From Nitrosococcus watsonii C-113 (GTDB lineage: Bacteria; Pseudomonadota; Gammaproteobacteria; Nitrosococcales; Nitrosococcaceae): a stretch of 64,000 nt of DNA. Location: assembly GCF_000143085.1 (NCBI RefSeq), contig NC_014315.1, positions 670,307-734,306 on the forward strand, read 5' to 3'. Positions 47,322 through 49,919 of this stretch are shown piece by piece. Under the pieces are notes generated by a model. That model was not told the origin of the DNA. It searched no databases and saw nothing but the letters and a program-made list of their open reading frames with translations. The position numbers were made by a program, and so were the translations under genes. The stretch's first letter is position 1; each line of letters opens with the position of its first letter.

Positions 47322-47999
47322 ATGATCCAAGCGGTTATTACCGATATTGAGGGAACCACTACTTCTCTATCTTTTGTAAAGGATGTTCTATTCCCCTATG
47401 CGCGGGAGCGGATGGCCGATTTCGTAAGACAACGGGCAGAAGATCCGATAGTAGCCTCCTTGCTTAGGGAAGTGCAGGCAGCGGCTCCGGATAAGACGCT
47501 GGATCAAGCGGGGATTATTCGTCAACTGCTTGCCTGGATGGATGTGGATGCCAAGGTGACGGCGTTGAAATCCCTGCAAGGGTTGTTGTGGGAGGCAGGT
47601 TACCGGCGTGGCGATTTTACTGGCCATATTTACCCGGATGTTGAACCCAACTTGCGGGCCTGGCGGAAGTTAGGCATTAGCCTCTATGTCTTCTCTTCGG
47701 GTTCTGTGCAGGCTCAGAAGCTTTTATTTGCCCATGCACCTGGGTGTGATCTAACCTCGCTTTTTGATGGGTATTTTGATACGCGTATTGGCTCCAAGCG
47801 AGAACCGAATTCCTACCAGCGTATTGCCGACGCTATTGACGTTCCATCCGAAGACATTCTTTTTCTATCTGATACGGAGGAAGAACTGGATGCGGCAGCT
47901 GCGGTGGGGATGAATACAATATGGTTGGTTCGGAACGAAAAACTAAATCCCGGTGCATCCCATCCTCAGGTGCCAAATTTTAATTCTATTCGAGTTTGA
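47322..47999 (+). CDS. mtnC: Acireductone synthase (enolase-phosphatase E1)
   Basis: HAD-family bifunctional enolase-phosphatase that converts the diketo intermediate to acireductone in the methionine-salvage pathway. The 225-residue protein has the HAD nucleophile region DIEGTTTSLSFVKDVLFPYA at 8-27 (D8, E10), FSSGSVQAQKLLF in the middle and FLSDTEEELDAAAAVGM near the end. It closes the mtnBDC cluster. Confidence 0.95.
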   Translation: MIQAVITDIEGTTTSLSFVKDVLFPYARERMADFVRQRAEDPIVASLLREVQAAAPDKTLDQAGIIRQLLAWMDVDAKVTALKSLQGLLWEAGYRRGDFTGHIYPDVEPNLRAWRKLGISLYVFSSGSVQAQKLLFAHAPGCDLTSLFDGYFDTRIGSKREPNSYQRIADAIDVPSEDILFLSDTEEELDAAAAVGMNTIWLVRNEKLNPGASHPQVPNFNSIRV

Positions 48000-48275
48000 A
48001 AAACCGGGCGAGCGATCCAAGTGTAGATTCCCAAGTTACTCTGCCAGCTTTTCATCCCGCTACATTCTTCCTTGTTTTTCCGCGGAATCTATACTATCTA
48101 TATAGATTAATAGCTTAGTGCACGTTATTAACCAGGAGGATTGGTCGGCTACCGCTAATTTATTTTTGGGTTGAAGATACGCGTTTCAATCATTCTCCCT
48201 CATTTTAAAAATCTGTCACTTTTGGGACGTATTATGGTCATTTAAAGTGACTTACCGTTGCTTAAAGGCACTGCC

Positions 48276-48476
48276 ATGATCAGAAAACAGACTCGGTTCC
48301 GCTGTGTTGCGCAAAGAGGATGGTATTTCCTTACCCGTGAAGGCCAGATGGGTCCTTTTGATACGCGGCGCGAAGCTGAAGTGATGTGTCAGCACTATAT
48401 TCATAAGATAAGGAACTCTCACCAGGAGGGAAAAGCCAGGCGGGAAACGAGAAAATTAGCTTATTTCTCTAAATAA
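48276..48476 (+). CDS. DUF6316-like small protein
   Basis: 66 residues from the ATG at 48276; an 18-base longer frame begins with TTG. RFRCVAQRGWYFLTREGQMG, then GPFDTRREAEVMCQHYIHKI, resembles the DUF6316 family of small gammaproteobacterial proteins with no known function. It is basic, with no transmembrane segment. It is convergent with the ribosome-binding fusion gene. The family assignment is from memory of the pattern. Confidence 0.6.
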   Translation: MIRKQTRFRCVAQRGWYFLTREGQMGPFDTRREAEVMCQHYIHKIRNSHQEGKARRETRKLAYFSK

Positions 48477-48558
48477 GGGAAAGGGATTGCGAAAATTTAG
48501 CGGGGGGAGAAGGGCGATGTATTTATCGTAAGCTGTGACACCGCCCTCGGCGTAGGCT

Positions 48559-49107
48559 TTAGTTCTTAATATGAACAGTGCTTGCCTGGGGGCCTAAATC
48601 TCCCTCTTCTTCAATAAAATGCACTTCATTGCCAACTTTGAGTTCCTTGAATCCTCCATTCAGGATGCTATTTCTGTGGAAATAAATTTCTCGGCCGTCA
48701 ATAGTTTCGATTTTACCGTAGTCTTGTTCAGGGACAAGTACTGATATACGGCCAGAGGGTGGCGGCTCATGATATTTAACATGGCCCCGTTGCCGCTGGA
48801 TGTGGCTTTCAAGCTGGCGCTGTGCAGCATTAAAGGCGTCTCGGATGGCAACATATACATCTTGATGGGCTTGCTTCCCATGATGTTCGCGACTGACTAC
48901 TAGTTCCCCTCCCGGCACCGTCAGATCAATACGAACATGGTAAAGTTTGCCTTGGTGGTGATGTTGGTGGGGAGCTTCGACTACTACTCGGCAGCCCATG
49001 ATCCGATCGTGAAATTGCTCTAATTTAGCGGCTTTTTTGCGAATTTTGTCCTCTACGGCTAGGGACGGCTCCATATGGCGAAAGCTAATTTGTATAGGTA
49101 ATTGCAT
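48559..49107 (-). CDS. HPF/RaiA ribosome-associated domain fused to a cold-shock domain
   Basis: 182 residues. The N-terminal part (about 1-105) matches HPF/RaiA ribosome hibernation proteins: MQLPIQISFRHMEPSLAVED at the start, GCRVVVEAPHQHHHQGKLYHVRIDL, and a YVAIRDAFNAAQRQLE helix. The C-terminal part (about 119-182) matches a cold-shock OB fold, with an RNP1-like segment at 129-135 and an RNP2-like IYFHRNSIL at 141-149, so it should bind RNA. Ordinary HPF has no such tail. Three of its borders are unlike neighbours: small genes on both sides and no sigma-54 or raiA context. It probably binds the 30S subunit and an RNA. Confidence 0.85.
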   Translation of the reverse strand: MQLPIQISFRHMEPSLAVEDKIRKKAAKLEQFHDRIMGCRVVVEAPHQHHHQGKLYHVRIDLTVPGGELVVSREHHGKQAHQDVYVAIRDAFNAAQRQLESHIQRQRGHVKYHEPPPSGRISVLVPEQDYGKIETIDGREIYFHRNSILNGGFKELKVGNEVHFIEEEGDLGPQASTVHIKN

Positions 49108-49137
49108 ACGGGTGCCTCTCCGACAAAGTTGGCTTTA

Positions 49138-49335
49138 ATGAAGTGGTTGAGATGGATAGACTATCCAGCTGTACTGGCCTGGATTGCTTGGTTTATAGCC
49201 CATTGGGTACATAATAAAGAAAGAATGTACAAGCGAAGTATAGTTTATGGGGGTTGCTCAGGATTCTTCTCCCGTGCTTTTGGCAGGGGGATAGCGGAAT
49301 TCTTTGGGATATTGCTTAGTTGTTGTCATCCTTAG
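49138..49335 (+). CDS. Doubtful 65-codon open frame
   Basis: Starts MKWLRWIDYPAVLAWIAWFI and could form one Trp-rich hydrophobic segment (about 8-24). There is no good ribosome site before the ATG (GACAAAGTTGGCTTTA). No known family is recognised. Kept only because it is the best open frame of this stretch; a non-coding shadow is equally likely. Confidence 0.25.
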   Translation: MKWLRWIDYPAVLAWIAWFIAHWVHNKERMYKRSIVYGGCSGFFSRAFGRGIAEFFGILLSCCHP

Positions 49336-49682
49336 GGGTAATTCCTCGGGAACTGCGGTTCCAACTCTCCGTCCCTATAGCTTTCAGCATTTCCAGGAGA
49401 GGGGTTCCGTCTTCTAATTAGAACTACTTATACAATATATATTATTGTCATGCCAGTAGTGTAGATAGGGATGGTCCAGGCTAATTTAAGTATAGGGGTC
49501 GAAGTTTTATCTGGCCATTGGTAAGAAGTTTCCTATCGTTTTTTCTTGCTAGAAGGACAGTAAAATTATCAGAATTGATTATTGGTTAGTGCTGGATTAC
49601 GGGTTGTTTTAACATCCGGCGTGAAGAGAGTTGCTTTTCAGAAGGAAAAGCATGCGAAACTTATAGCATGGAGCGATGGTAA
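49336..49682. other. Intergenic region upstream of yidD with alternative hairpins
   Basis: 347 bases without a convincing gene. Near its start, GGAAC (49350-49354) can pair with GTTCC at 49359-49363 or with GTTCC at 49405-49409. In the second case CTCTCC (49366-49371) also pairs with GGAGAG (49397-49402). The rest is AT-rich (for instance 49430-49450). No promoter or ORF stands out. Confidence 0.4.
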
Positions 49683-49919
49683 ATGAAGAATATTCTGCTG
49701 TCCCTGATTGTTTTTTACCGCTATGCTCTTAGCCCTTTTATGGGTAATCATTGCCGCTATTATCCTTCCTGCTCAGCCTATACTCAAGAGGCCATCCAGC
49801 GTTATGGTGGATTTCGAGGTGGTTGGTTAGGGCTGAGGCGCCTTTTACGTTGCCATCCCTTTTGCCCTGGCGGTATTGATCTAGTACCCGAAATACCCGA
49901 ATGGCGATCTAAATCCTGA
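49683..49919 (+). CDS. yidD: YidD membrane protein insertion efficiency factor
   Basis: 78 residues, family length 70-90. A short hydrophobic N terminus ([11 protein letters not shown], about 11-21) is followed by the family cysteines C24 and C30 in [20 protein letters not shown] and by [21 protein letters not shown]. The protein assists YidC-dependent insertion in the inner membrane. It is normally encoded between rnpA and yidC, but neither is near; here it stands alone before an M23 peptidase. Confidence 0.9.

Follow-up and report, generated by a model that had tools for sequence, protein, structure and literature searches.

What is the role of a protein that joins a ribosome-hibernation domain to a cold-shock domain (CSD), and is such a fusion new? 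The question is raised by one gene in a 64,000-nucleotide stretch of DNA (the window) from Nitrosococcus watsonii C-113, a member of a genus of marine ammonia oxidisers. The coding sequence lies at 48559..49107 on the minus strand, with its ATG ending at 49107 and the stop codon included, and encodes a 182-aa protein; the plus-strand reading of 48559-49107 is interrupted by stops. A likely Shine-Dalgarno sequence, GGAGAGG, was read at 49115..49121 on the minus strand, 7 bases upstream of the ATG. Comparison with one same-genus genome revealed 33 synonymous codon differences and 1 nonsynonymous difference, and because of this ratio we regard the locus as a real gene, which is under strong purifying selection.

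The gene is alone on the minus strand among its neighbours. To its left, on the plus strand, are genes of the class II aldolase family, the ARD (acireductone dioxygenase) family and a HAD hydrolase, which together presumably resemble methionine salvage, and then a gene for a small DUF6316 protein (48258-48476, Pfam E 1.7e-9) that adjoins the fusion gene. To its right are YidD and an M23 peptidase. A 77-aa plus-strand frame at 49102-49335 had no Pfam match and we take it to be a chance frame. An Rfam search of 47900-49800 returned nothing at E up to 1, and promoter-like and terminator-like sites were at about the level of shuffled sequences (2 versus 2.4 and 2 versus 1.3, respectively).

The original prediction had placed an HPF/RaiA domain fused to a cold-shock domain at exactly these coordinates and had proposed a domain search and an AlphaFold model as checks. 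The Pfam search detected both domains above their cut-offs: Ribosomal_S30AE at residues 5-106 (48790..49095, minus strand; PF02482, E 3.3e-17, 63.4 bits versus a cut-off of 23.7) and the CSD at residues 119-179 (48571..48753, minus strand; PF00313, E 1.1e-9, 38.4 bits versus 27). The two are separated by a linker, residues 107-118 (48754..48789, minus strand), in which K111 and H113 are invariant in 107 of 107 alignment rows, the window protein included, and are also found in the solved Coxiella protein described below. The AlphaFold model, built on a 12-row alignment, had a mean pLDDT of 77 and a pTM of 0.50 and consisted of an HPF fold followed by a CSD fold. In VIA fold alignments, residues 3-111 matched RaiA (8rd8; Z 15.4, rmsd 1.9 over 103) and residues 115-181 matched a cold-shock protein (5jx4; Z 11.9, rmsd 1.3 over 65); a fold alignment of residues 114-181 to E. 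coli CspA (1mjc) gave Z 11.5 and rmsd 1.6 over 67. The cold-shock fold in the C-terminal part was thus recovered by sequence and by fold. The domain folds of the model are usable, while the relative placement of the domains is not confident, given the pTM of 0.50 and a pLDDT below 50 at linker residues 107-114.

Two strands of the CSD were located by alignment, QDYGKI at residues 128-133 (48709..48726, minus strand) and EIYFHRNS, carrying an HRNS signature, at residues 140-147 (48667..48690, minus strand). We take them to be RNP1-like and RNP2-like strands, respectively. The motifs that the original prediction had put near the RNA-binding strands, DYGKIET (residues 129-135) and IYFHRNSIL (141-149), do map there. 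The second RNP1 phenylalanine of free cold-shock proteins (Csps) is replaced by K in the window protein.

For the window protein, NCBIfam gave 11 matches, none over its cut-off: the short HPF/YfiA equivalog TIGR00741 scored 38.5 versus 40.9 bits, and the best of the Csp models listed (CspA/C/D/E type) was far below at 27.4 versus 120. Short HPF/RaiA proteins (YhbH, YfiA) share the N-terminal domain and its fold but lack a CSD, and those of the canonical type branch apart as a clade of their own (see below). HPF-long (lHPF) also combines an HPF/RaiA domain with a C-terminal extension, which in the window protein is a CSD rather than a dimerisation domain; Pfam reported no HPF-long dimerisation domain at E up to 1. 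Free Csps (CspA/CspB) have the same cold-shock fold, whereas the CSD of the window protein is fused behind an HPF domain and half of its scored aromatic/His platform is replaced. The archaeal protein HibA, according to the part of PMC13324472 cited here, likewise has an HPF/RaiA domain fused to a module that gives a second ribosome contact, but that module is a CBS module, not a CSD, and touches the large subunit.

The fusion is already known, as the original prediction had cautioned it might be. The best solved relative of the window protein was chain 9 of 9t0z (9t0z/9tze), matched over residues 1-181 with E 8.3e-47. This is HPFcold, CBU_0020 of Coxiella burnetii (PDB 9T0Z, 9TZE), described in June 2026 (PMC13392368, cited throughout from part of its text). 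In that text, the first domain of HPFcold fills the 30S cleft of a monomeric ribosome, and the CSD holds the anti-Shine-Dalgarno (aSD) end of the 16S rRNA, next to bS21 and uS7. The paper retrieves HPFcold proteins as those with PF02482 and PF00313 both above the Pfam gathering cut-offs in one protein, as is the case for the window protein. It also cites a bioRxiv preprint (Chan et al. 2025.11.04.686544) that had listed the HPF-CSD fusion too. The HPFcold layout, with S30AE first, a short linker and the CSD last in about 20 kDa, matches the domain order found here (5-106, then 119-179, of 182). The window gene is thus a good new example of HPFcold, sharing both Pfam domains and their arrangement with the solved chain and having 182 aa versus 183. 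It adds a non-pathogen member to a class whose only structure found is from Coxiella, a control-listed germ.

By analogy with the Coxiella protein, and with a probability of roughly 0.8, we propose that the product of the window gene is a ribosome hibernation factor of the HPFcold type, in which the N-domain would act as a plug and the CSD as a clamp on the 16S 3' end of 70S monomers. The N-terminal HPF/RaiA domain would plug the 30S decoding cleft and so block mRNA and tRNA, and the CSD, at the mRNA exit, would hold the aSD 3' end of the 16S rRNA and shield it from nucleases. Single 70S ribosomes would then be parked and protected without RMF and without the dimerisation domain of HPF-long. 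We infer the binding site, the aSD contact and the nuclease protection from the Coxiella structure; starvation as the setting in which the protein is used is speculative. A literature search on Nitrosococcus and hibernation, by titles, yielded no expression or biochemical results on the window protein. The original prediction had also proposed that the tail ties ribosome inactivation to contact with mRNA or rRNA, for instance in the cold. The rRNA part is in line with the Coxiella CSD on the aSD in the cited part of PMC13392368, and we found no support for the mRNA contact or the cold role; a domain named after cold shock need not act in the cold. The window member lends itself to a test of whether ribosomes outlast long starvation, with no 100S dimers, through the guarding of their 16S aSD end.

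The gene content of the genome was examined next to that of Coxiella. The Nitrosococcus genome measures 3.37 Mb, and the window lies in its 3.33-Mb contig; a 5-kb piece of a second contig matches plasmids of N. oceani (96% over 79%) and N. halophilus (85% over 76%). With E up to 0.001 as the limit, PF02482 matched two genes of this genome, the window gene and a canonical short HPF, and RMF had no match in it. As far as the cited text of PMC13392368 goes, Coxiella likewise has an additional short HPF and no RMF; it has no free cold-shock protein, unlike the window genome, which keeps one. CSDs occur at three places in the Nitrosococcus genome (the free 72-aa Csp frame, a 233-aa frame and the window gene), and there is one bS21 gene; 16S rRNA, sought in this assembly by two patterns and by the Rfam model, had 0 matches. 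Across the class, RMF exceeded the cut-off in 15 of 369 genomes (11 of them strong, at 46 bits or more), and 23 matched at E up to 0.001. The 15 include no genome with a CSD-bearing HPFcold; one of them (G213) has a CSD-less form, and another genome (G399) has a sub-threshold RMF match together with a full HPFcold. Chance would give this absence with P 0.06 (15 genomes) or 0.13 (the 11 strong ones), with relatedness uncontrolled, and avoidance between RMF and HPFcold was not used as evidence.

The window protein differs from the solved protein at positions of the CSD. Residues were counted in 79 distinct full-length sequences, the window protein included, that came from whole-genome searches; sequences chosen by a motif pattern (L017-L096) were excluded from this count and from the trees since the pattern contained the IYFHR motif. 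H144 is present in 68 of the 79, N146 in 62, S147 in 61 and Y142 in 69, and position 145 is R or K in 63 (R 58, K 5). Position 132, F in free Csps, is R or K in 31 sequences and F, Y or W in 20. A complete HRNS occurs in 42. Where the window protein has H144, R145, N146, S147 and K132, which we take to face RNA, Coxiella HPFcold has N, A, G, N and F, and it also lacks a 5-residue loop that the window protein has before residue 82. R or K at 145 is found in 60 of 69 sequences with this loop and in 3 of 10 without it. The protein of the same-genus genome G002 has HKNS as its sole amino-acid difference from the window protein. We also scored a nucleic-acid platform of eight positions, our own choice by what we take to be CspB numbering, counting F, W, Y or H. 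The window and Coxiella proteins each keep 4 of 8, as do 54 of the 79 sequences, versus 8 in the free Csp of the Nitrosococcus genome. In line with the cited part of PMC13392368, the CSDs of HPFcold are thus not ordinary Csps.

These residues bear on a different reading, in which the N-domain docks as usual and the HRNS-type CSD binds other RNA, such as mRNA leaders or other rRNA, so that the protein would be an RNA chaperone or mRNA tether rather than an aSD clamp. The loss of half of the platform and the basic residue at 145, which is A in Coxiella, would fit this reading, and a free csp gene just upstream on the same strand in six methylotroph loci hints at regulation shared with an RNA chaperone. 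However, the Coxiella protein keeps no more of the platform and yet holds the aSD, and platform loss is therefore no argument against the clamp. The window protein is homologous to the solved protein over its full length, and conservation over the HPFcold set of PMC13392368, in the part cited, clusters on the aSD-contacting residues. We consider binding to other RNA unlikely.

Much less likely still is a role in ribosome dimerisation like that of HPF-long, with the CSD in place of the dimerisation domain. The length and layout do resemble HPF-long, and 100S particles have been linked to a long HPF of Legionella whose C-terminal domain is of another kind (PMC12977618, in the part cited). Against this, Pfam detected no dimerisation family in the window protein, as noted above, and the solved relative is described on a monomeric ribosome.

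By the residue counts, the solved Coxiella protein departs from the majority type, a subclass marked by the HRNS signature in which the window protein falls. Intermediates with FGFI/FGFL-like strands and HENS blur the split, as does the HKNS of the same-genus G002 protein. Because the solved protein lacks this signature, and the loop as well, the published contacts cannot all be identical in the window protein and may not carry over at every residue. The split suggests that a structure from the majority subclass is needed before those contacts are generalised.

HPFcold occurs widely in the class. Among near kin, 12 of 59 genomes (its own included, as in the counts that follow) matched at E up to 1e-6: ten with full-length fusions, G005 with a CSD-less protein and G004 by a free Csp only. 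The orthologues in three same-genus genomes are 86-99% identical. Two same-genus genomes, G001 (L016) and G003 (L015), carry a second full-length HPFcold paralogue at 62-64% identity, which was not found in the window genome. At E up to 1e-10, 88 of 369 class genomes matched, and these were classified by hand from their reading frames. A CSD-bearing protein is present in 62, at full length in 61 (in one of which, G323, the CSD looks decayed) and cut by a contig end in one (G150). In 18, only a CSD-less protein of the same N-domain lineage was found, as read; the tail in G213 could be a CSD that has shifted or decayed, as its neighbour on the tree is the protein of G323, a member of the same family. 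Eight matches were weak, partial or broken (G084, G129, G182, G274, G307, G344, G360 and G395). In G084 (L217), a broken copy with the CSD in another frame, the N-domain is by eye nearly identical to that of Coxiella HPFcold. CSD-bearing relatives in 61 of 368 other class genomes, together with the purifying selection, exclude chance as the origin of the fusion.

In 4 of 24 genomes searched (G005, G139, G207 and G413; L013, L133, L137 and L143), the CSD-less protein is the sole PF02482 match, and a factor unlike the canonical short HPF may be their only HPF; the G413 assembly is in 350 contigs and 90% complete. With two exceptions, CSD frames (minimum 50 aa, E up to 1e-5) were absent from the stretches examined beside CSD-less genes: in G084 the copy is broken, and in L148 a free csp lies separately, about 1 kb away from the gene.

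The history of the CSD was examined on a tree of the N-domain with 125 columns, whose 120 rows comprised 77 fusion proteins, 27 CSD-less proteins and 16 canonical short HPFs. Left out were L154 (a canonical short HPF), the long-branch fusion rows L218 and L219, the CSD-less or partial matches L217, L227-L231 and L233, any row shorter than 100 aa, duplicates, and fusions identical to the window protein over their first 60 residues. The 16 canonical short HPFs formed one clade with support 100, and all other proteins were on the opposite side, with the CSD-less proteins intermixed with the fusions. The fusion rows do not group together as a single clade: forcing them to do so lowers the log-likelihood by 173 (AU p 0.0004). 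The CSD tail was therefore gained or lost repeatedly: at least 4 changes are forced by well-supported branches and 17 fall on the best tree, these being quick trees of 125 columns in which 50 of 116 inner branches are open. Loss would be the preferred direction because the fusion CSDs share features absent from the free Csp of the Nitrosococcus genome (such as YF for FV at 142-143).

Mean entropy over a 108-row set, which included L017-L096 and in which most rows were fetched with the pattern containing IYFHR, was 1.35 bits for the CSD versus 1.25 for the N-domain. In this set the CSD is slightly less conserved, contrary to the cited part of PMC13392368, where it is reported to be more conserved than the first domain. 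That the CSD is a dispensable passenger, with ribosome plugging by the N-domain as the sole selected function, would suit the 18 genomes with CSD-less proteins only and their place among the fusions on the tree, but is highly improbable with a CSD about as conserved as the N-domain and with G131, H144 and G172 invariant in 107 of 107 rows, mostly fetched by the IYFHR-containing pattern (H144 is present in 68 of the 79 profile-found sequences).

A broader picture can be put forward tentatively, somewhat against the odds. HPFcold may comprise two chemically different clamps, the majority form (with the loop, HRNS, and R or K for a stacked aromatic) gripping the 16S 3' end by basic and polar contacts and Coxiella being the outlier, and the CSD may have been shed or gained several times on an N-domain lineage distinct from canonical short HPF, with CSD-less forms as the only HPF found in some genomes. 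The HRNS split and the CSD gains or losses may already be in print, in the supplement of PMC13392368 or in the preprint of Chan et al.

A scan of genome contigs retained 80 of 328 relatives, with titles mostly of Gammaproteobacteria and others of Deltaproteobacteria, Nitrospirae, Methylomirabilota and further groups. A free csp frame lay in the stretch around HPFcold in 8 of these 80 loci. In six (L027, L032, L052, L073, L074 and L077), it precedes HPFcold directly, on the same strand and no more than about 150 bases away, which suggests that the two are transcribed jointly there; the csp end looks shifted in L073. All six fall among the 11 loci examined that are methylotrophs by title.

Among viral contigs, 87 pattern stretches yielded 0 confirmed relatives. 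Plasmids gave 11 matching records. Four cover more than 80% of the query, from Sinorhizobium fredii, Azospirillum oryzae and Methylocella tundrae (twice), and six further matches listed cover 56-67% on the N-domain side. Annotated plasmid relatives are named 'HPF/RaiA family ribosome-associated protein'. On NZ_CP029234.1, NZ_CP054621.1 and NZ_LR536451.1 (Sinorhizobium, Azospirillum and Methylocella, respectively), the relatives extend over 98-99% of the protein length, and such plasmid-borne full-length relatives are a hint at horizontal transfer.
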